Shown: one piece after another, positions 25,643 to 36,553 of the stretch | Position numbering within the stretch: position 1 is the stretch's first letter | Layout of the letters: each line of letters starts with the position of its first letter | Origin: Phytoactinopolyspora halophila | GTDB taxonomy: Bacteria > Actinomycetota > Actinomycetes > Jiangellales > Jiangellaceae | Direction of reading: 5' to 3' | Assembly: GCF_003287285.1 (NCBI RefSeq) | Contig: NZ_QMIG01000002.1 | Location: 372,001 to 436,000 of the forward strand | Length of the DNA: 64,000 nucleotides | Translations under genes and position numbers: made by a program | Notes under the pieces: model-generated | What the model was told of the DNA's origin: nothing | The model's input: only the letters and a program-made list of their open reading frames with translations | Databases searched by the model: none

Positions 25643-26713
25643 ATGAACGTAGACTCCACGCCACGCAGCCCGACCATGGCCGATGTCGCAACTGTCGCCG
25701 GAGTGTCGCACCAGACAGTGTCGCGCGTTCTCAACGACCATCCCAATGTCCGATCCTCCACACGCGAACGCGTTCTCGCCGCGATCTCCAAGCTCGGATA
25801 CCGGCGGAACTCCTCGGCGCGCGCGCTCGTGACCAGGCGGACGAATACGCTCGGCGTCGTCGCCCTCGACACCACTCTCTACGGGCCGGCCAGCACCCTG
25901 CTCGGCATCGAGTGGGCGGCACGGAACGCCGGATATTTCATCAGCATCGTGAGCTTGAAGAAGATCACCCGCAGCGGGGTCGACGAGGCGCTGGAGTACC
26001 TCGCCGAACAGTCCGTCGACGGGTTCATCGTGATCGCACCGCACCGGTGGGCCGCGACAGCTCTGGCCGGCCTACCCGCGCAGCTCCCGGCCGTCGCCGT
26101 CGAGGGGGGAGAGGCAGGTGCGCTGCCCGCCGTGGCCGTGGACCAGGTCGCCGGAGCGTCGCTGGCCACCCAGCACTTGCTCGACCAGGGGCACGAGACC
26201 GTCTGGCATGTCGCGGGGCCGACGGATTGGCTGGAGAGCGAGGGCCGGGTGCGCGGTTGGAGGCAGACGCTGGAAGCCGCGCAGGTGCCGCAGCCAGAAT
26301 TGATCTACGGCGATTGGAGTCCTCGCTCGGGGCACGAGGCCGGACGCGTGCTGATGGACAAGCTGCGGAACCGTGCCACCGACCCCACGGGTACGTCGGA
26401 TCCTCCACTCAGCGCCGTCTTCGTGGCAAACGATCAGATGGCCCTGGGATTGCTTCGCGCATGTCACGAAGCCGGAGTCCGAGTGCCCGAGGACATCAGT
26501 GTGGTCGGATTCGACGACATTCCCGAAGCTGAATTCTTCAGTCCTCCCCTGACCACGGTGCGACAGGATTTCGCCGAGGTGGGCCGGCGCAGCCTCGACA
26601 TGTTGCTGGCGCAGATCGAGGGCGGGGCCAAACGAGGCGAGGAACACCGTGCGATCGTGGCACCGGAGTTCATCGTTCGCGAAAGCACACGCGTCCACCA
26701 GGACGTGTCCTAG
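25643..26713 (+). CDS. araR: LacI-family regulator of the arabinose genes
   Basis: Repressor of 356 residues with an N-terminal HTH (TMADVATVAGVSHQTVSRVL, about residues 11-30) and a sugar-binding domain ending in the common phrase VPEDISVVGFDDIPEAEFF. It stands directly before araB-araD-araA on the same strand and a LacI-type operator (26847-26860) precedes araB, so control of L-arabinose use is the natural reading. The symbol is assigned from position; sugar specificity is not shown by the sequence itself. Confidence 0.85.
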   Translation: MNVDSTPRSPTMADVATVAGVSHQTVSRVLNDHPNVRSSTRERVLAAISKLGYRRNSSARALVTRRTNTLGVVALDTTLYGPASTLLGIEWAARNAGYFISIVSLKKITRSGVDEALEYLAEQSVDGFIVIAPHRWAATALAGLPAQLPAVAVEGGEAGALPAVAVDQVAGASLATQHLLDQGHETVWHVAGPTDWLESEGRVRGWRQTLEAAQVPQPELIYGDWSPRSGHEAGRVLMDKLRNRATDPTGTSDPPLSAVFVANDQMALGLLRACHEAGVRVPEDISVVGFDDIPEAEFFSPPLTTVRQDFAEVGRRSLDMLLAQIEGGAKRGEEHRAIVAPEFIVRESTRVHQDVS

Positions 26714-26846
26714 CTCCCGCAGCCGTGGTTCGTCACTGGTGGTGTGGAGATTCGTGGCTACCCTCCCGCCATCACAACGCCCGGATGCCGTACCAGACGG
26801 GACGGGGCTACCGTCACGACTGCGAGCGAAGTACGCTGTGGCGTAT

Positions 26847-26860
26847 TGTGAGCGCTAACA
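26847..26860. promoter_or_regulatory. LacI-type operator before araB
   Basis: TGTGAGCGCTAACA is an imperfect palindrome (one mismatched pair) with the central CG of LacI-family sites. It lies 41 bases before the araB start and downstream of the araR gene. Binding of the adjacent regulator in the absence of arabinose is inferred. Confidence 0.75.
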
Positions 26861-26900
26861 TTGATCCCGACTGGCCCCGGACTCACGGGAGGAGGCGGAT

Positions 26901-28568
26901 ATGTTCGTCGTCGGCGTCGACTTCGGGACCCTGTCCGGGCGTGCCGTCGTAGTGCGAGTCTCCGATGGTGCCGAGCTCGCGAGCAGCGTCCACGACTATC
27001 GGCATGGCGTCGTGGACGAGGTGTTGCCGCACAGCAGTGAGGAGCTCCCGCCCGACTGGGCGTTGCAAGTTCCCTCCGACTACATCGACGTATTGAAGAC
27101 AGCCGTACCCGAAGCGGTGCAGGCAGCCGGTATCGATCCGGCACAAGTGGTCGGTATCGGCACCGACTTCACCGCGTGCACGGTCCTGCCCACGCTCGCC
27201 GATGGAACACCGTTGTCCGAGCTCCCGGAGTTCGCCGATCGCAAGCATGCCTACGTGAAGCTCTGGAAACATCATGCCGCGCAGCGGCACGCCGACCGGA
27301 TCAACACGCTCGCCGCCGAGCGAGGCGAGTGGTGGCTGCCGCGGTACGGCGGCCTCATCTCCTCCGAATGGGAATTCGCCAAGGGCCTTCAGGTATTAGA
27401 AGAAGATCCACACGTGTACGCGGCGATGGAGCGCTGGGTGGAGGCCGCGGACTGGATCGTCTGGCAACTCTGCGGTCACTACGTACGCAATGCCTGTACC
27501 GCCGGGTACAAGGCGATCTACCAGGACGGCTCCTACCCGTCGCGTGAGTTCCTTGAGGCGCTGAACCCCGAGTTCGGCGACTTCGTCACCAGCAAGGTAG
27601 AACAGCCCATAGCCCAACTGGGTGATCGCGCCGGCGCGCTCACCGCCGAAGCCGCGGCGTGGACCGGACTTCCCGAGGGGATCGCCGTCGCCGTCGGGAA
27701 CGTGGATGCCCACGTCACCGCACCGGCCGTGCAGGCGGTCGAACCCGGACAGATGGTCGCCATCATGGGCACCTCCACGTGCCACGTGATGAACAGCGAC
27801 GTGCTGGGCCAGGTGCCCGGGATGTGCGGCGTCGTCGACGGCGGGATCGTCGCCGGGCTGTGGGGCTACGAGGCCGGGCAGAGCGGCGTCGGCGACATCT
27901 TCGCGTGGTTCGTCGACAACCACGTCCCACCCGGCTACGTCGACGAAGCCGAACGACGCGGGCTCTCCGTACACGAGTACCTCACGGAACTAGCTGCCCG
28001 GCAGCGTGTCGGTGAGCACGGCCTGGTGGCGCTCGACTGGCACAGCGGGAACCGCTCCGTGCTCGTCAACCACGAGCTGTCCGGTGTCGTCGTCGGGCAG
28101 ACACTGAGCACCCGACCCGAGGACACGTATCGAGCCCTGCTCGAGTCGACCGCGTTCGGCACCCGCACCATCGTCGAGACGTTCCAGCAGGCCGGAATAC
28201 CCGTCACCGAGCTCGTCGTTGCCGGTGGGCTGCTGAAAAACCAGTTCCTCATGCAGGTGTATTCCGACATCACGGGCCTGCCGTTGAGCACCGCCAGCTC
28301 CGAGCAGGCCCCCGCGCTCGGAGCGGCCATCCACGCCGCTGTCGCTGCCGGCGCTTACCCCGACATCCGGGCGGCGGCAGGAGCTATGGGCAAGGTCGCA
28401 CGCAACGTCTACACGCCGGATCCCGGTCGGCAGAAATCCTATGACGCCCTGTTCGCCGAGTACACACGCCTGCACGACTACTTTGGCCGGGGCGGGAACG
28501 ACGTGATGCATCGGCTACGAGAGATCAGACGAACCGGAGTCCCAGAATCACTGGAAGGATCGGGATGA
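26901..28568 (+). CDS. araB: L-ribulokinase
   Basis: FGGY-family kinase of 555 residues phosphorylating L-ribulose to L-ribulose 5-phosphate in arabinose catabolism. The N-terminal phosphate loop GVDFGTLSGRAVVV, GTDFTACTVLP, the mid-protein GYKAIYQDGSYP and the C-terminal domain IMGTSTCHVMN are typical of AraB. A good GGGAGGAGG precedes the ATG. It overlaps araD by 4 bases. The gene order araB-araD-araA differs from the araBAD order of enterobacteria. Confidence 0.96.
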   Translation: MFVVGVDFGTLSGRAVVVRVSDGAELASSVHDYRHGVVDEVLPHSSEELPPDWALQVPSDYIDVLKTAVPEAVQAAGIDPAQVVGIGTDFTACTVLPTLADGTPLSELPEFADRKHAYVKLWKHHAAQRHADRINTLAAERGEWWLPRYGGLISSEWEFAKGLQVLEEDPHVYAAMERWVEAADWIVWQLCGHYVRNACTAGYKAIYQDGSYPSREFLEALNPEFGDFVTSKVEQPIAQLGDRAGALTAEAAAWTGLPEGIAVAVGNVDAHVTAPAVQAVEPGQMVAIMGTSTCHVMNSDVLGQVPGMCGVVDGGIVAGLWGYEAGQSGVGDIFAWFVDNHVPPGYVDEAERRGLSVHEYLTELAARQRVGEHGLVALDWHSGNRSVLVNHELSGVVVGQTLSTRPEDTYRALLESTAFGTRTIVETFQQAGIPVTELVVAGGLLKNQFLMQVYSDITGLPLSTASSEQAPALGAAIHAAVAAGAYPDIRAAAGAMGKVARNVYTPDPGRQKSYDALFAEYTRLHDYFGRGGNDVMHRLREIRRTGVPESLEGSG

Positions 28569-29230
28569 ACAGCGAGCCGGCTGTCGAGCGGGTCCGTCGC
28601 CAGGTATGCGCGCTACACGCCGAGCTCGTGCGGTACGGCCTGGTCGCCTGGACCGCGGGCAACGTGTCCGGCCGGGTTCCGGGTGCCGACCTGTTCGTGA
28701 TCAAACCGAGCGGTGTCAGCTACGACGATCTCACCCCCGAATCGATCGTCGTATGTGACCTCGACGGCCATCTGGTCGACGGGGTACATACGCCGTCGAG
28801 TGACACCGCCGCGCACGCGTACGTCTATCGGCACATGCCCGACGTCGGTGGTGTCGTACACACCCATTCGACCTATGCTTCGGCATGGGCAGCGCGAGCC
28901 GAACCCATTCCCTGCGTATTGACGGCCATGGCTGACGAGTTCGGCGGTGAGATCCCCGTCGGGCCGTTCGCCCTCATCGGCGACGACTCCATCGGCCGTG
29001 GCATCGTCACGACTCTCGAAGCACACAACTCGCCAGCCGTGCTCATGCAGAATCACGGAGTCTTCACCATCGGCGAGGACGCGCGATCCGCGGTGAAGGC
29101 CGCGGTCATGTGCGAGGACGTGGCGCGCACCGTGCACGTCGCTCGCCAGCTGGGTGAGCCCATCCCGATTCCGGACAGCGACGTCGCGAAGCTTCACGAC
29201 CGTTACCAGAACGTCTACGGCCAAGGCTGA
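28565..29230 (+). CDS. araD: L-ribulose-5-phosphate 4-epimerase
   Basis: Class II aldolase-fold epimerase of 221 residues converting L-ribulose 5-phosphate to D-xylulose 5-phosphate, which enters the pentose phosphate pathway. Zinc ligands are in VVHTHSTYASAWA and MQNHGVFTIG, and the phosphate-binding loop in WTAGNVSGR. The start codon overlaps the araB stop (ATGA), so translation is coupled. Confidence 0.95.
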   Translation: MNSEPAVERVRRQVCALHAELVRYGLVAWTAGNVSGRVPGADLFVIKPSGVSYDDLTPESIVVCDLDGHLVDGVHTPSSDTAAHAYVYRHMPDVGGVVHTHSTYASAWAARAEPIPCVLTAMADEFGGEIPVGPFALIGDDSIGRGIVTTLEAHNSPAVLMQNHGVFTIGEDARSAVKAAVMCEDVARTVHVARQLGEPIPIPDSDVAKLHDRYQNVYGQG

Positions 29231-29254
29231 TCCAGCCCGATCGGAGGAGATGAC

Positions 29255-30757
29255 ATGGAGTCCGACGTCGCCGAGGTATGGTTCCTCACGGGAAGCCAGG
29301 GGCTGTACGGTGAAGAAACCCTGCGCCAGGTCGCCGACCAGTCGAAGCGCGTTGCCGCCGTACTCGACGAGGCTCGCGAGATTCCGGCCACGATCGTATG
29401 GAAGCCGGTGCTGACCAGCGCGGAGGAGATCCGGCGCATGTGCTCCGAGGCGAGCACCACGGACGCGTGCATCGGCGTCATCGCGTGGATGCACACCTTT
29501 TCGCCTGCGAAGATGTGGATCAACGGCCTGCGGATTCTGGACGTGCCCCTGCTGCATCTCCACACCCAGGCCAACGCCTCGCTGCCGTGGTCCGAGCTCG
29601 ACATGGACTTCATGAATCTCAATCAGGCCGCGCACGGCGACCGCGAGTTCGGTCATATCCAGTCTCGCCTGGGCACCACTCGCACGGTCGTAGCAGGTCA
29701 CGTCGGCGATCCGGCCGTGATCTCGCGGGTCGCGTCGTGGACGCGTGCCGCAACCGCACGCGCGGAGATCAGATCCCTGCGGCTCGTGCGGTTCGGCGAC
29801 AACATGCGCAATGTCGCCGTCACCGAAGGGGACAAGGTCGAAGCCCAGATCCAGTTCGGCGCCTCGGTGAACACGTACGGCGTCAATGATCTCGTTGCGG
29901 TCGTCGACGCCATGCCCGATGCCGACGTCGACGGCCTCGTCGCCGAGTACGACGACACGTACGAGCTCGCACCGGAGCTGCGCAAGGGTGGCGATCGAAG
30001 GGAGTCCCTGCGCGACGCCGCACGGATCGAAGCGGGCATGCGGCAGTTCCTGAACGATGGTGGCTATCGAGCCTTCACCACGAACTTCGAGGACCTCGGC
30101 GGTTTGCGTCAACTTCCGGGGATAGCCGTGCAGCGGTTGATGGCCGACGGCTACGGCTTCGGCGCCGAGGGCGACTGGAAGACGTCCGTCCTGCTGCGTG
30201 CCGTGAAGGCGATGGCGTCCGGACTACCGGGCGGGACGTCGTTCATGGAGGATTACACCTACCACTACGCGCCCGGGGAGCCCAAGATTCTCGGCGCGCA
30301 CATGCTCGAAGTGTGCCCCAGCATCGCCGGGCAGGTGCCATCGGGGGAGATCCATCCCCTGTCAATCGGCGACCGCGACGATCCGGTGCGGCTCGTCTTC
30401 GATGCCCTGCCCGGGCCGGCAGTCGTCGTCGGGTTGGCGGACGTGGGAGATCGTTTCCGGTTGGTCGCGAACGAGATCGACGTCGTGCCGCCCGACGAGC
30501 CCTTGCCCAGGCTGCCCGTGGCTCGCGCGGTATGGAAGCCCCGTCCGGATCTCTCGACGTCGGCGGAGGCGTGGATTACTGCCGGTGCACCGCATCACAC
30601 GGTCCTGTCCTCGGCTGTGGACCTGGAGACGCTGAACGATTTCGCCGAGATGTCGGGCACCGAGTTCCTGGCCATCGACGGCGGCACGCGGATACGTGAC
30701 TTCATCAAGGAGATCCGCTGGAACCATGCCTACCACCGCCTTGCCCGCGGCCGGTGA
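29255..30757 (+). CDS. araA: L-arabinose isomerase
   Basis: Manganese-dependent isomerase of 500 residues that turns L-arabinose into L-ribulose, the first step of the pathway. It begins [17 protein letters not shown], and [22 protein letters not shown] and the metal-site region [10 protein letters not shown] are diagnostic. It follows araD by 24 bases with CGGAGGAG before the ATG. No arabinose transporter lies next to it in the window. Confidence 0.97.
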
Positions 30758-31197: not shown

Positions 31198-31256
31198 CCC
31201 CCTGATCATGAACACTAGTCGGGCTATGTGCTCGACTAGTGTTCATGATCAGGGGG
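31198..31256. repeat. perfect long inverted repeat supplying a stop codon
   Basis: Two perfect 24-base arms (31198-31221 and 31233-31256) around an 11-base spacer. The stop TGA of the TIGR03086 gene lies inside the right arm. On the minus strand CGAACCCCCTGATCATGAA matches the element at 3695-3750 in 18 of 19 bases, again with the TGA as a stop codon. It also contains ACTAGT twice. It looks like a dispersed palindromic element that doubles as an intergenic hairpin. Confidence 0.85.
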
Positions 31257-31797
31257 TTCGGCCGAGGAAGGCGAGTAGCTTCGTCTGCCGATCGGCACCA
31301 TCCGCAACGGCGACCGCCGGTCCGCACACACCCGGCTGGCGCAGGTTGTCACCGAGCTGCTCGGCCAGGACGAAGGCGTCTTCGACGTCGTGGGGCGGGA
31401 TGGTCTCGTCCAAACCGGCGGCCCGGGCCAGATCCCAGCCATGAACGATGAGGTCGAAGCAGACGAACGAGTCCACTGTCGCGGCCAGCGTCGTCCGTCC
31501 GAAGTAGCCGTCGTACTCCCGATTCGCGCGCTCCGGATCGTCGAGGATCTCCTGCATCGCGTCCCGCACATGAGCCCACGCGGCCACCGGATCGTCAGCG
31601 ACGGACGGACCGGGCGGAATCGACAGGCCCACAAAGCCAGGCGTCCTGGCGAGGACATCGACAAGATGCTGCACGACGTCGCGAGCCGTCCAGCCCTCAC
31701 ACGGTGACGGAGCCTCCCACCGGTCATCTGGCACGGAACCGATCCGCGTCGTCAGATTGTCGGCCACACGGCGGAATCTCGAGGCTGTCGTGGTCAT
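31249..31797 (-). CDS. TIGR03086 family metal-binding protein
   Basis: Protein of 182 residues of the DinB-like maleylpyruvate isomerase N-terminal group (TIGR03086), a four-helix-bundle family that often binds metal and in some members uses mycothiol. The signature CEGWTARDVVQHLVD supplies the first His and VCFDLIVHGWDLARA the other metal ligand. Substrate unknown. The last codons and the stop lie within the long inverted repeat. Confidence 0.85.
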   Translation of the reverse strand: MTTTASRFRRVADNLTTRIGSVPDDRWEAPSPCEGWTARDVVQHLVDVLARTPGFVGLSIPPGPSVADDPVAAWAHVRDAMQEILDDPERANREYDGYFGRTTLAATVDSFVCFDLIVHGWDLARAAGLDETIPPHDVEDAFVLAEQLGDNLRQPGVCGPAVAVADGADRQTKLLAFLGRTP

Positions 31798-31845
31798 GGC
31801 GCTCAGTGTTCCAGATAGGTCGTCGCGCCGGAACGTCTGACACTG

Positions 31846-31889
31846 TCTAGATAAATCTATCGCTCAGGCTAGATTGACCGATAGAGTCC
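31846..31889 (+). promoter_or_regulatory. AT-rich promoter region with inverted repeats
   Basis: This stretch carries TCTAGA (31846-31851), the inverted pair TCTATCG (31856-31862) / CGATAGA (31879-31885), and the inner pair AATCTA / TAGATT. TAGAGT at 31882-31887 fits a -10 box seven bases before the ATG at 31894, which suggests a leaderless transcript of the ATPase gene. TCTATCG recurs twice just after that gene. Confidence 0.5.
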
Positions 31890-31893
31890 GATC

Positions 31894-33090
31894 ATGGATC
31901 CCGTACGCAATCCCTATGCGCCAGGAGCTGGTCAGCGGCCACCCGAGCTCGCGGGCCGGGATCGCGAGCTCGAGCAGTTCGACGTCGTGCTCGAACGTAT
32001 CGCCCGAGCGCGCCCCGAGCGCTCGCTCGTGCTCACCGGATTGCGTGGGGTAGGCAAGACAGTGTTGCTCAACGCGCTGCGTTCGCAGGCCATCCGGAGA
32101 TTGTGGGGCACCGGCAAGATCGAAGCGCGGCCCGACCAGTCCATCCGGCGTCCGCTGTCGAGCGCGCTGCACATGGCCGTCCGGGAGCTCACGCCCCGGC
32201 ATCGCGATCCGGAACAGATCGATCACTTTCTCGCCGTCTTGAAGGCCTTTGCCATGCGGTCGGCCGGCGAGAACGCCAAGCTCCGTGATCGGTGGCATCC
32301 GGGCATCGACGTGCCCGCCGCTTCAGGCCGGGCCGACACAGGTGACATCGAGGTCGATCTCGTCGAACTGCTGGTGGACGCCGCCGGTGTTGCACGCGAC
32401 GTCGGCGTGGGCATCGCCATCTTCATCGACGAGATGCAAGACGTCCCACCCGCGGACGTCTCGGCGCTGTGCGCAGCCTGTCACGAACTCTCCCAGCAAG
32501 GCCTCCCGCTCGTGGTGGTCGGGGCGGGCCTGCCTCACCTGCCCGCCGTGTTATCGGCGTCGAAGTCGTACTCCGAGCGGCTCTTTCGCTACGTCCGGAT
32601 CGACCGGCTGGAGCGCGACGCCGCCGATCACGCCCTCGTGGCACCGGCAGCGGACGAGGGCGTGGAATACGAACAGTCCGCACTTGACGCCCTCTACGAA
32701 GCCACCGAAGGTTATCCGTACTTCGTCCAGGCCTACGGCAAGATGACCTGGGATCACGCACCGGCAGTGCCGATCACCGCCGACGACGTGCGAGTCGCCG
32801 GCCCAGATGCCCAGGCGGAGCTGGCTGTCGGCTTCTTCGGCTCCCGATACGAGCGGGCGACACCTGCCGAGCGGGAGTATCTCCAGGCGATCGCGACCCT
32901 GTCCGAGTCGACGGACGGCACGGTCTCCACGGCCGACATCGCCGCGCTCCTCTCCCGCAAGCCGTCCTCGCTGTCCCCGGCGCGCGACTCGCTGATAAAG
33001 AAGGGCCTGGTCTACTCGGCCGAGCGCGGCTCGATCGCGTTTACCGTGCCGCATTTCGGCTTCTACCTCCGTCGATATGCGACCACCTGA
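31894..33090 (+). CDS. AAA/STAND-like ATPase with winged helix
   Basis: Protein of 398 residues with Walker A GLRGVGKT (about residues 50-57), Walker B IAIFIDEMQD, sensor-like LPLVVVGAGLPHLPA and a C-terminal winged-helix region (residues 320-395, ending FTVPHFGFYLRRY). It resembles the archaeal-type/Orc1-Cdc6-like ATPases found singly in many actinobacteria. Partner and function are unknown; DNA binding is likely from the winged helix. The gene stands alone between CTAG- and TCTATCG-containing repeats on both sides, unlike its neighbours. Confidence 0.85.
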   Translation: MDPVRNPYAPGAGQRPPELAGRDRELEQFDVVLERIARARPERSLVLTGLRGVGKTVLLNALRSQAIRRLWGTGKIEARPDQSIRRPLSSALHMAVRELTPRHRDPEQIDHFLAVLKAFAMRSAGENAKLRDRWHPGIDVPAASGRADTGDIEVDLVELLVDAAGVARDVGVGIAIFIDEMQDVPPADVSALCAACHELSQQGLPLVVVGAGLPHLPAVLSASKSYSERLFRYVRIDRLERDAADHALVAPAADEGVEYEQSALDALYEATEGYPYFVQAYGKMTWDHAPAVPITADDVRVAGPDAQAELAVGFFGSRYERATPAEREYLQAIATLSESTDGTVSTADIAALLSRKPSSLSPARDSLIKKGLVYSAERGSIAFTVPHFGFYLRRYATT

Positions 33091-33094
33091 GACG

Positions 33095-33155
33095 TCTATC
33101 GCGCTCTATCGCCTTCTAGAAGTGTCTAGCAAAAATTCTAGAAGGGACTAGAAAG
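33095..33155. repeat. CTAG-rich repeats and hairpin after the ATPase
   Basis: TCTATCG occurs twice with a 10-base period (33095-33101 and 33105-33111). Next come the perfect inverted pair CCTTCTAGAA (33112-33121) and TTCTAGAAGG (33136-33145), with GTCTAGC in the loop and ACTAGAA just after: four CTAG tetranucleotides in about 40 bases. It separates the convergent ATPase and globin genes and may act as a terminator or a protein binding site. Confidence 0.7.
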
Positions 33156-33182
33156 CTCCAGACGGCCCTATAACGCGAAACC

Positions 33183-34715
33183 TCACCAGATCCCGTAGTC
33201 GTCGCAAACGATCTGCTCCTCCGGCACCTGCTGCTCGCGCAACCGGTCGAGCGCCGCCTGCACCATGGTGGTAGGTCCGGCGAGATAGACGTCGTGTTCA
33301 CGCCAGTCTCCGTAGGCCGACACGATGTTGCCCATCAGATCTGGACTCCGATCCTCGGGGCCCTCGGGCGACACCACGGGCACGACCGTCAGGCGCCTGT
33401 ACCGCACTCCGATCGACTCGAGATGGGGGAGCGCGTAGAGGCTGTCTCGGTCCCTGCCAGCGTAGAAGACGTGGACCCGGCGACCGTCGAGGCGCTGCTC
33501 GAGTTCTTGCAGCCCAGCCAGGATCGGTGCGATCCCGACGCCACCGGCGATGCACAGCAGGTCGCGTTCCGAACGTGGGTTGGCGAGGTCATAGCCTATC
33601 GGAGCGCCGAGCCGCAGGATGTCTCCCGCTTCCGTTCGCCAGACCAGGGCGCTGCTCACCCACCCGGCGCCGACCGCCCGGACATGGAACTCGACCAGGC
33701 CGTCATCCCGCGGCGCCGAAGCCATCGACAACGCCCGCCACATGTTGGGGCGTCGCGGCGACATGACGTAGCAGTATTGGCCCGGCCGGTAGGGAAAATC
33801 GGTGTGCGGACGAGCCTGGATGATGGCAAGATCGTCCAGCAGACGACGGTGGAAGACCACCTCGGCGTCCCACCACGCCGGCCACATGACCGCGTCCCGT
33901 TCGGCACTCTCCGTCATGATCGTCGCGATGGTGTCGTACGCATGCACCCATGCGCTTTCGTGACGTGTGGTCCACTGCTCGCCGAGCTCCTCGCGGAATG
34001 CTCTCACCAAAGCCGAGCCAAGCGGCGCGTAGTGCTCCGTGATCACCCCGAACTTGCGGTGATCACGGCCAAGTGCCTCAAGATATTCGACCACCTCGTC
34101 ACGGTTGTCCGCGGTGCCGACGATGTGCACCAGCGCTGCGACAATACGGGAGCGCTGTGCCTCCATTCCCACCGGGAAAAGATCACGCAACTCGGGATTC
34201 CGCGCAAACAGGATTGCATAGAAACGCTGTGCTAGTTGTTCCAGCCGGTCTTCGGTCAACGTGATCGTCTCGCGAAGCGCGGCCGTATCGAATCCCAGCG
34301 CGTTGCTTGGCACAGCATGAAGCGGCGCCGACGCCGGTCCTGCGGCGGACGCCTCCGGTTCGGGCCGAAGCGTCAACTCACCTGCCTCAGGGGAAGCGAC
34401 GGATTCAGAGGTATCTGCGGAGTCGGCAGCGGAATCCGCACGAGCTTGCTCAACATTCGTCGACGCAGTTGTGATCTCATCCCGTACTACTCGCTCCACA
34501 CCGTTCTGGCCCACGATCGCAGGCGCGGGACCGGCGCCGTTTCCAGCGACGGCCGAGTTTCCATTGTGAGCGTACCCATTGACCTGCGCATCGCCCGCAA
34601 CAGGAGTCCCGAATGCCGCCTCCTGCGCATCGGCATGCGGTTCCTCTTCCACGGCATCACCGGCCCGGCGAACCGTGGATCCCCGTTTTCCCGCTGCCCG
34701 GGAGTGAGTCCACAT
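33183..34715 (-). CDS. flavohemoglobin-like globin-reductase with long disordered head
   Basis: Protein of about 510 residues. After a disordered, Ala/Glu-rich head of about 135 residues comes a globin domain (Tyr166 at B10 in FYAILFARNPELRDLF, Gln187 at E7, proximal His219 in GRDHRKFGV). It is followed by a ferredoxin-reductase-like FAD domain (RALSMASAP in place of the usual RxYS) and an NAD domain with CIAGGVGIAPILAGL. Such proteins oxidise nitric oxide to nitrate or act as oxygen-dependent electron carriers. The ATG at 34715 has GGAGAGG 6 bases upstream; ATG at 34721 is too close to it. A nitrosative-stress regulator is not adjacent. Confidence 0.88.
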   Translation of the reverse strand: MWTHSRAAGKRGSTVRRAGDAVEEEPHADAQEAAFGTPVAGDAQVNGYAHNGNSAVAGNGAGPAPAIVGQNGVERVVRDEITTASTNVEQARADSAADSADTSESVASPEAGELTLRPEPEASAAGPASAPLHAVPSNALGFDTAALRETITLTEDRLEQLAQRFYAILFARNPELRDLFPVGMEAQRSRIVAALVHIVGTADNRDEVVEYLEALGRDHRKFGVITEHYAPLGSALVRAFREELGEQWTTRHESAWVHAYDTIATIMTESAERDAVMWPAWWDAEVVFHRRLLDDLAIIQARPHTDFPYRPGQYCYVMSPRRPNMWRALSMASAPRDDGLVEFHVRAVGAGWVSSALVWRTEAGDILRLGAPIGYDLANPRSERDLLCIAGGVGIAPILAGLQELEQRLDGRRVHVFYAGRDRDSLYALPHLESIGVRYRRLTVVPVVSPEGPEDRSPDLMGNIVSAYGDWREHDVYLAGPTTMVQAALDRLREQQVPEEQIVCDDYGIW

Positions 34716-35157
34716 CGTCATCCTCTCCGCCCCCGCATAAACCTAGCGCCCAACCCCCGTCTTACGTAAGGACGCGACGAGCCCTGCGGGACATATGTAG
34801 GCGAGGAGGGCATCGCGGATGGACGATCGGCCTCGTCGGCGATGCGTTGAAGATTCCTGGATATGCAGGTGAGAAGGCCCTTCGAGATGGTTGATGTCAG
34901 GCGACGAACACCTCGGTGTTTTCGTATGCAAAATCTCGCCCATGTCTCACTATTCGGATAGCAGAGTCGGGCAATCCTGTCGATATAGTAGGTATCACCA
35001 TTCACGTGACTTCTCCGGCGAGATATGCGAGAGAGCTCACAATGCACGCGGCTCACGGCTTCCTCGTCCGCCGGAAATGTTTGGGCGAGTCGAATAGCGG
35101 GCACCAATTGAGTCGGATGTCGAGTACGATCCGGTGCCCGGAGGGAGGTGCGCCATA
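34716..35157. other. intergenic region without a recognised gene
   Basis: About 440 bases between the divergent globin and anti-sigma-like genes, clearly richer in A and T than the neighbours. The short open frames here lack family character and good ribosome binding sites. It must hold the promoters of both genes; a TATAGT at 34984-34989 could be a -10 box, but no matching -35 box is clear. No RNA gene is recognised. Confidence 0.5.
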
Positions 35158-35610
35158 GTGCACGCTGCGACCGCGCCGCGGCCGGCCGGAACTCGCGATG
35201 TCCGGTTCTTGGAGCTGGTCAATACGGTCAGCAGCGTGCCGATGGCCCGGCATATCGTCGCCGACGACCTGCGAGCCACCGGAATTCCGGAATCGGTACT
35301 GGAGAGCGTGATCGCCGTGGTGACCGAGCTGGTCTCCAACGCCGTGTTGCACGCCAGGCCCGTCTCGCTGACCGACGCTGGTGAGGGCGTCGTCCTCCGG
35401 TGGGCCGTCACCAACCGGCATGTGCTCGTCAATGTGACCGATGGCGGAGGTCCCGAGGAGCCGACACTCAAGGCCTCACCGATCGAGGAGCCCGAAGGGC
35501 GGGGCTTGGCCATCGTCGATGCCCTTGCACGGGACTGGTCGGTACGCTCCGAAGACGATCAGGTCACCGTTCAGGCAGTCGTCGGACCGTGGGAGTCACG
35601 AAGCGAGTGA
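35158..35610 (+). CDS. anti-sigma factor-like ATP-binding protein
   Basis: HATPase_c_2 (GHKL) protein of 150 residues like RsbW/SpoIIAB-type serine kinases. The N-box is ELVSNAVLHA, the G1 box NVTDGGGPEEP and the G2 box EGRGLAIVDALA. Such proteins bind and inhibit sigma factors or phosphorylate anti-anti-sigma proteins; no partner sigma is in the window. The GTG at 35158 follows GAGGGAGG. The next gene (DUF5926) starts 22 bases after its stop. Confidence 0.88.
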   Translation: MHAATAPRPAGTRDVRFLELVNTVSSVPMARHIVADDLRATGIPESVLESVIAVVTELVSNAVLHARPVSLTDAGEGVVLRWAVTNRHVLVNVTDGGGPEEPTLKASPIEEPEGRGLAIVDALARDWSVRSEDDQVTVQAVVGPWESRSE

Positions 35611-35632
35611 GGACGGGCGCTACGCTCGTTCT

Positions 35633-36553
35633 GTGAGCACATCTACCGAAATACCAGTGGTCGGACCACGACAGCCATGTCCATGTGGATCCGGCAAGCG
35701 ATACAAGATCTGTCACGGCAAGAAGACACGTGCGGCAGATCGCGAGTACGTCGCCCGCCCGTTCCAGGGCCTGCCTGGCGAATGTGATTGGGTGGCGCTG
35801 CGCGAAATCGTCTCGACAGCCACGGCACCGGTGACACTGGCCGGCGAACACGCCGGCCGTGATGTGCTGGCCGTCACGCTGCTTCCCTCGGCCCACCCCG
35901 CCATGGTTCGAGAGAACGGCCAGGTTCTGCTCGGACTACAGACGGTCACGTCCACCGGCGATCCCAGCGCTGACCTCGCGCACACCCTGCAGGAAGCGCT
36001 GCGGAGCGAGCCCGGCACGGCCGTGTCACCAGGACCGCGTCCATCGGGAGGCCCCAGGCTGCAGGATCTCCTATCGACGGACGCGACGTTCGACGTCACC
36101 GTCCACGACGGCTTCGATTTCTGGCTCGATCCCGACAGCGAGCCGTCCGCAGAGGAGCGAACGCTGCTCGACAACGCCAACGAAGCCGTGGTGCCCACCG
36201 CCCGGCTCGAATCAGCGGAGGCCGCCTACTGGTGCCACCTCGGCGATCGCGATCAGGTCCGATGGGTCCTCCCGTACGACGAGGAACCATTGCTCGACGG
36301 TCTCGCCCGGCTCCACGCGAAGGAGGCGGATTCGCTCGGTCCGGGAACGCGTCTGCTCGGTACGTTCCGGGCCCATGGCCTTCTCGTGCCCGTCTGGGAC
36401 CTCGTCGACGGGACGCGAGCCGAAGAGGTCGAAGAGCCCGTTGCCACATTGCGCGACCGCCTGGCGGAGGCGGTGGCCGATTCGAAACCTCTCGACGCCG
36501 AGCAGCGGCGTGCGCGTGCGGGTCTTGCCAATCGACAGGTGACCATCCGCTGA
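35633..36553 (+). CDS. DUF5926 family protein with SEC-C motif
   Basis: Protein of 306 residues. Near the N-terminus a SEC-C type zinc motif (QPCPCGSGKRYKICHGK, about residues 15-31) is seen, as at the end of SecA and in many accessory proteins; the rest is the actinobacterial DUF5926 domain of unknown function with WCHLGDRDQVRWVLPYDEE. The GTG at 35633 is chosen because the frame upstream overlaps the anti-sigma gene. Pairing with an anti-sigma-like gene upstream is common in actinobacteria. Confidence 0.88.
   Translation: MSTSTEIPVVGPRQPCPCGSGKRYKICHGKKTRAADREYVARPFQGLPGECDWVALREIVSTATAPVTLAGEHAGRDVLAVTLLPSAHPAMVRENGQVLLGLQTVTSTGDPSADLAHTLQEALRSEPGTAVSPGPRPSGGPRLQDLLSTDATFDVTVHDGFDFWLDPDSEPSAEERTLLDNANEAVVPTARLESAEAAYWCHLGDRDQVRWVLPYDEEPLLDGLARLHAKEADSLGPGTRLLGTFRAHGLLVPVWDLVDGTRAEEVEEPVATLRDRLAEAVADSKPLDAEQRRARAGLANRQVTIR

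Follow-up and report, generated by a model that had tools for sequence, protein, structure and literature searches.

A lone actinobacterial AAA+ ATPase with TCTA dyads at its own promoter and at a second site: a candidate autoregulator

Why should a gene for a single ATPase carry copies of the same short repeats on both of its sides? The gene in question lies at 31894..33090 on the (+) strand of the window, the whole 64-kb stretch of DNA analysed here, and encodes a lone AAA_16 ATPase of 398 aa with a C-terminal winged helix (Pfam AAA_16, E 9e-21). The genome (5.04 Mb in 77 contigs) holds a single copy of it. According to Pfam, the divergent neighbour is a protein with a mycothiol maleylpyruvate isomerase N-terminal domain (31249..31797, (-) strand), which lies outside the unit, and the convergent neighbour is a globin-FNR fusion gene (33183..34721, (-) strand), whose 3' end faces the stronger of two dyads described below. 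HATPase and SEC-C/DUF5926 genes follow at 35134..36553 on the (+) strand and are the syntenic anchor of the neighbourhood across families. Farther upstream (25643-30757) a LacI-type regulator is followed by genes which, from translation only, read like araB, araD and araA for L-arabinose use.

Repeats and dyads beside the gene

The first-pass annotation had described TCTATCG/CGATAGA inverted on the promoter and two direct copies past the stop, and we found all of them, at 31856 (+), 31879 (-), 33095 (+) and 33105 (+). Across the 64-kb window the 7-mer is not enriched (8 observed vs 5.2 expected); four of the eight copies fall within the 124 bp that make up the two flanks of the gene (P ~1e-9). 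CTAG, which had been called scarce and counted six times in the short flanks, is indeed rare in the window (31 observed vs 72 expected), and 6 of the 31 lie within the same 124 bp (P 4e-11). CTAG neighbours at a spacing of 10 or 12 bp occur as three pairs, all of them in the 3' flank and nowhere else in the 64 kb. The flanks are also AT-richer, as had been noted, since GC content in 200-bp windows drops to 0.58–0.60 and 0.56–0.58 compared to about 0.66 around. TCTATCG and CTAG are variants of a single unit, TCTA(G/T/C), repeated in steps of 10–12 bp to the left and right of a dyad centre. The complete dyad of about 45 bp comprises four TCTA/TAGA units 10–12 bp apart, with TCTAG-N8-CTAGA at its centre.

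The promoter dyad (31846..31885) consists of TCTAG at 31846, TCTAT at 31856, CTAGA at 31869 and ATAGA at 31881, with spacings of 10-12-12. Its centre at 31864 is 29–30 bp 5' of the ATG, a position matching that in orthologues, and it scores 18.8 bits with a position weight matrix and 19.7 bits with covariance model R1. A candidate -10 element of the TAnnnT type, TAGAGT (31882..31887, (+) strand), was identified from the sequence within the last dyad unit, 6 nt 5' of the ATG, and TCCGATC or ATACTgTGCGAtgC is conserved ahead of the start in 85 orthologue rows. The transcript is probably leaderless. A sigma-70 promoter scan found nothing at the ATPase locus.

The stronger dyad is located 3' of the stop codon (33112..33155, centre 33133), with CTAG at 33116, 33126, 33138 and 33148 and spacings of 10-12-10. 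It is the better of the genome's two sites (R1 34.0 bits, E 5e-11 in the window), and two extra TCTATCG units (33095..33111, (+) strand) prolong the array toward the stop codon in 10-bp steps. A scan of 31780-33260 for intrinsic terminators, defined by a GC-rich stem and a T run, returned none, and a terminator function of the strong dyad was rejected for lack of a T run at the window locus. The single match to an Rfam RNA family was at chance level.

Dyads across orthologous loci and genomes

We asked whether such repeats also flank the gene in relatives. All 21 other genomes examined from the same family had an orthologue, and the overall count was 37 of 60 genomes, the window's own included. 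A named genome collection contributed 80 loci (out of 313 confirmed), mostly from Micromonospora, Rhodococcus and Nocardia, at 73–78% identity. In 110 loci, a redundant set which some genomes entered by two routes, CTAG density amounts to 30/kb in the 120 bp 5' of the start and 2.6/kb in the 250 bp past the stop, compared to 0.06/kb within genes and 0.35/kb elsewhere. CTAG-to-CTAG spacings of 10 bp (n=122) and 12 bp (n=133) dominate there and others are far rarer.

Among 142 distinct loci, a dyad above 8 bits was found inside the last 60 bp ahead of the start in 128, overlapping the gene's own putative promoter as expected of a transcriptional autoregulator, and a second dyad above 20 bits was found within the flank examined in 108; the matrix had been derived from loci of this kind, which makes these counts favourable. 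The repeats thus flank most orthologues, the point on which the first-pass annotation had said its reading could fail, and they have accompanied the gene through many actinobacterial families. Promoter dyads are centred at -29 to -31 (95 loci), -48 to -52 (32 loci) or -38 (1 locus), and the second dyad is mostly located up to 150 bp past the stop or up to 300 bp 5' of the start. Matches above 20 bits numbered 216 in true orientation vs 0 in the same sequences reversed. A genome-wide test is fairer than the 142-locus counts, though the model it uses likewise derives from 39 such sites. We ran this covariance model of the second dyad on 393 class genomes at E 0.01, and it matched 84: 76 of the 93 genomes with an ATPase orthologue (at least 64% identity) and 8 of the 300 without (Fisher 1e-54). 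In the window's genome it matched two sites only, even at E 10, and these are the two flanks of the ATPase gene. TCTAG-N8-CTAGA in genomes without an orthologue mostly occurs as single sites, near chance.

Two individual sites are recorded separately. A 32.5-bit dyad (L227:2526-2569, G026) precedes a D-Ala-D-Ala ligase-like gene in a genome in which no ATPase was found. Another genome carries four TCTAG-N8-CTAGA sites over 48 kb of one contig (G008:C28:5027-52846), whose central sequence differs from that of the ATPase dyad; they may be prophage operators.

The two dyads differ in symmetry. At the promoter the units are set asymmetrically (10-12-12) and the spacer arms show no covariation, whereas the second dyad is often a near-perfect palindrome whose arms covary between species beyond the TCTA units. 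Its arms pair in 79% of cells vs 73% in shuffles, covariation is 0.198 vs 0.103, and 59 cells changed on both sides, with none of 500 shuffles as high. Such covariation would be expected if identical subunits occupied both arms under specificity drift, and equally if the DNA or its transcript formed a hairpin. Strong palindromes might accordingly work as hairpins in RNA or DNA, whether as attenuators, bidirectional terminators or cruciforms, and not as protein sites; besides covarying, their arms of about 16 bp enclose a loop of 6–8 nt, and they often lie between convergent genes or past a stop. We regard this as improbable, since the non-palindromic promoter dyad has the same TCTA units and steps, the window locus has no terminator-like site and the sites are nearly restricted to ATPase-bearing genomes. 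In three loci with two strong sites each (L061, L236 and L243) the arms look alike within a genome by eye, as expected if one protein reads both.

More distant relatives (30–52% identity) showed own-promoter dyads in 7/21 cases at p<=0.05, vs 0/21 in control sequence 400 bp further up, and with other motifs. Those at 38–43% (L206, L207, L126 and L127), again with own-promoter dyads of other motifs, suggest one autoregulatory family with lineage-specific sites.

Fold and inheritance of the ATPase

The ATPase domain is well supported (PF13191, 75.5 bits vs a gathering cut-off of 32.6), and 67/67 aligned family members match AAA_16 at E 0.001. A DtxR-type HTH at residues 327–374 remained below the Pfam threshold. 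The AF2 model, built with 61 sequences, reached a pLDDT of 94.7. Foldseek ranked archaeal Cdc6 first (1fnn, E 2e-10), followed by ORC, RuvB and SSO1545, and the VIA ranking was led by PABY2304 (Z 23.7), SSO1545 (Z 22.3) and ORC2 (Z 20.6), with other Orc and NLR proteins at about 18 or lower. The alignment with A. pernix ORC2 (1w5t) covers 340 residues at an rmsd of 6.1. The proposed C-terminal winged helix and initiator-like build are therefore borne out, with Cdc6 first in Foldseek and ORC2 in VIA behind two similarly built archaeal ATPases. By sequence the protein is not a member of the Orc1/Cdc6 family: TIGR02928 gave 17.2 bits vs a cut-off of 181.3, in the P-loop region only. The predicted fold thus resembles the Orc1/Cdc6 initiators (1fnn, 2v1u, 2qby and 1w5t) over 286–340 residues at Z 16–21; the ATPase differs from them in sequence, at just 12–15% identity, and the window has no skew switch. 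SSO1545 (2fna) and PABY2304 (2qen) are its best full-length structural matches, likewise different in sequence (15–16% identity).

The VIA list also includes NLR resistosomes, CED-4, the apoptosome and MalT, and a few family members match nSTAND models. A STAND/NLR-like sensor, in which the ATPase would keep the protein inactive until a stress or phage signal and then let it oligomerise on DNA, is nevertheless very improbable in our judgement: the 398-aa model ends at the winged helix, with no sensor domain or repeats beyond AAA+ and winged helix, the gene is mostly single-copy, vertically inherited and 67–90% conserved in carrier families, unlike most defence genes, and PADLOC returned just a weak match in the ATPase domain (E 3e-4). 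What PHROGs and PADLOC returned was confined to weak matches in the ATPase domain and to families with no assigned function.

The first-pass annotation had further suggested a selfish unit. On this reading the repeats would be the ends of a mobile element carrying the ATPase. A lone gene with repeats on both sides fits this view, as do relatives at 42–46% identity that occur on plasmids and the genes that in some relatives separate the ATPase from its strong dyad. Against it, family changes along a tree of 61 proteins number 15 vs a minimum of 14 (family f26 is split into two clades), the locus is syntenic with DUF5926 across families, the window's genome has one copy, the repeats mark no additional gene copies and IMG/VR held no relative detectable by the peptide patterns used. 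The ATPase is vertically inherited in an oriC-proximal neighbourhood. Synteny and tree largely refute the selfish reading, which is hardly credible now. A phylum sample of 296 genomes, class members included, added 8 more distant relatives (40–48%) outside the class.

A phage origin was considered and rejected; the candidate was one unverified fecal contig, at 72%, next to an IMG/VR search that was negative for the peptide patterns used. This record (MT837995.1, 'Bacteriophage sp.', L128) carries an orthologue together with the promoter dyad and looks like a piece of actinobacterial chromosome. Elsewhere, the ATPase gene is split in two frames in a relative of the same family (G012:C24:51933-53140) and has an in-frame TAG in a genome of genus g43 (G108:C2:447930-449147).

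Location of the second site and its possible role

In most lineages the second dyad is located near the gene, at times with intervening genes (0.5 to 6.6 kb). In Jiangellaceae genomes with inserted genes (L160 and L165–L168) it remains beside the globin-FNR gene. One of these loci has an AbiEi/AbiEii-like gene pair, judged from translation only, between ATPase and strong dyad (L165:6633-8302, G011); other relatives differ there. A different arrangement was found in genus g43 of family f26 (these, like g31, g118, g102 and g133, are arbitrary labels of the comparison set): here the second dyad lies in the spacer between what we take to be gyrB and gyrA, centred 29–53 bp 5' of the gyrA start, in 18/18 ATPase carriers (17 by the strict pattern TCTA-N10-TAGA). 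The chance per spacer is 0.0007. The spacer dyad was absent from the non-carriers, 0/1 in g43, 0/12 in g31 and 0/2 in g118. In genome G186 it lies 38 kb from the presumed recF between two genes which, from their sequence, we read as crgA and a rhomboid protease, and the ATPase gene is 669 kb from recF. As the adjacent gene varies by lineage, we rejected the strong dyad as a promoter operator of a fixed neighbour.

The position in the genome raises the alternative that the strong dyad serves as a landmark for the oriC region, in the manner of a centromere or of datA, with the ATPase acting in replication timing or origin segregation and autoregulation just steadying its level. The ATPase gene is 67–253 kb from recF, on either side, in 26 of 27 genomes (3–8.5 Mb) in which both share one contig; the window's own contig gave no recF match. 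Second dyads away from the gene are still near oriC (the gyrB-gyrA spacer and G186), most genomes have one or two sites, and the fold is that of an initiator. DUF5926, used as a control, is present in 23 of the 27 genomes, in 17 of them at a distance of up to about 12 kb from the ATPase, and is just as oriC-proximal, so that the ATPase's place is explained by inherited regional synteny, and oriC proximity as a property special to this gene is weakened. Moreover, GC skew is negative in 16/16 blocks of the window without a switch or extremum near the sites, and no orthologue was present in 300 of the 393 class genomes. We therefore consider a landmark unlikely, and the earlier idea of an origin-like unit found no support in the window, although in relatives both gene and sites lie near oriC. 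A broader version, that of a one-site landmark system in which a bacterial protein of Orc1/Cdc6 type has its own binding site near oriC, would link its dosage to DNA topology (through control of gyrase in one genus) or to the copy number of the origin, and be widespread in actinobacteria beside DnaA and ParB; we put it forward as a doubtful, speculative extension.

We favor an ATP-switched autoregulator that would bind at its own promoter and at a single strong site elsewhere on the chromosome, with a probability of roughly 0.58. The Orc1/Cdc6- or SSO1545-like AAA+ protein would bind the dyad, with its four TCTA units about one helical turn apart, as an ATP-dependent homo-oligomer via its winged helix. 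Since the promoter dyad spans about -50 to -8, with TAnnnT 6 nt before the start, bound protein should block transcription, and autorepression is the simplest reading of this position. The weaker, asymmetric dyad over the gene's own, probably leaderless, promoter would thus let the protein repress its own synthesis, and the stronger near-perfect palindrome would be the other, functional target on the chromosome. In g43 the dyad ahead of gyrA could place gyrA under the same control. Several observations speak against an autoregulator. A regulon of one or two sites, one of them at the regulator's own promoter, is odd; in the window, as in Jiangellaceae relatives, genes converge with their 3' ends on the strong dyad, which is not where an operator belongs; 3/3 ATPase carriers of g102 and g133 have no dyad in the gyrA spacer; 14 of the 142 loci have no promoter dyad above 8 bits and 34 no second site above 20 bits in the flank examined; and a plain protein site need not have arms that covary beyond the TCTA units.

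Related designs are known. Plasmid Rep proteins and ParB/parS combine autorepression via an own-promoter dyad with a stronger cis site and few sites in all, and archaeal Orc1/Cdc6 genes have origin recognition boxes, which are dyad repeats, beside the gene, as the ATPase gene has its dyads; the bacteria that carry the ATPase use DnaA. The ATPase resembles Rep and ParB/parS in its own-promoter dyad, stronger second dyad and few sites, and differs from them in fold and in the absence of a replicon or partner gene at the window locus. A closer parallel is Orc1-2 of Saccharolobus, a non-initiator Orc1 and DNA-damage regulator which binds promoters including its own, involves both ATPase and winged-helix domains, has its DNA binding controlled by its ATP state and has a global regulon with an asymmetric ANTTTC motif (PMC9738581). 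An Orc-type protein can thus act as a promoter-binding regulator. The ATPase shares with Orc1-2 the AAA+ plus winged-helix build and a short core motif at its own promoter, to which it would likewise bind under the control of its ATP state; unlike Orc1-2, it is bacterial and has a four-unit dyad at one or two sites per genome (PMC9738581).

Literature searches, judged largely from abstract openings, found no published description of the protein or its motif. For a protein conserved at 67–90% in carrier families these searches gave no described function, and in the window's genome the model detects the dyad in the two flanks of its gene only. Being short and rare, the dyad could be deleted cleanly, and the gyrB-gyrA spacer site of g43 would offer a direct handle on whether gyrase or the origin region is involved. 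If the ATPase binds its dyads, it would be a bacterial counterpart of the non-initiator Orc1 regulators.
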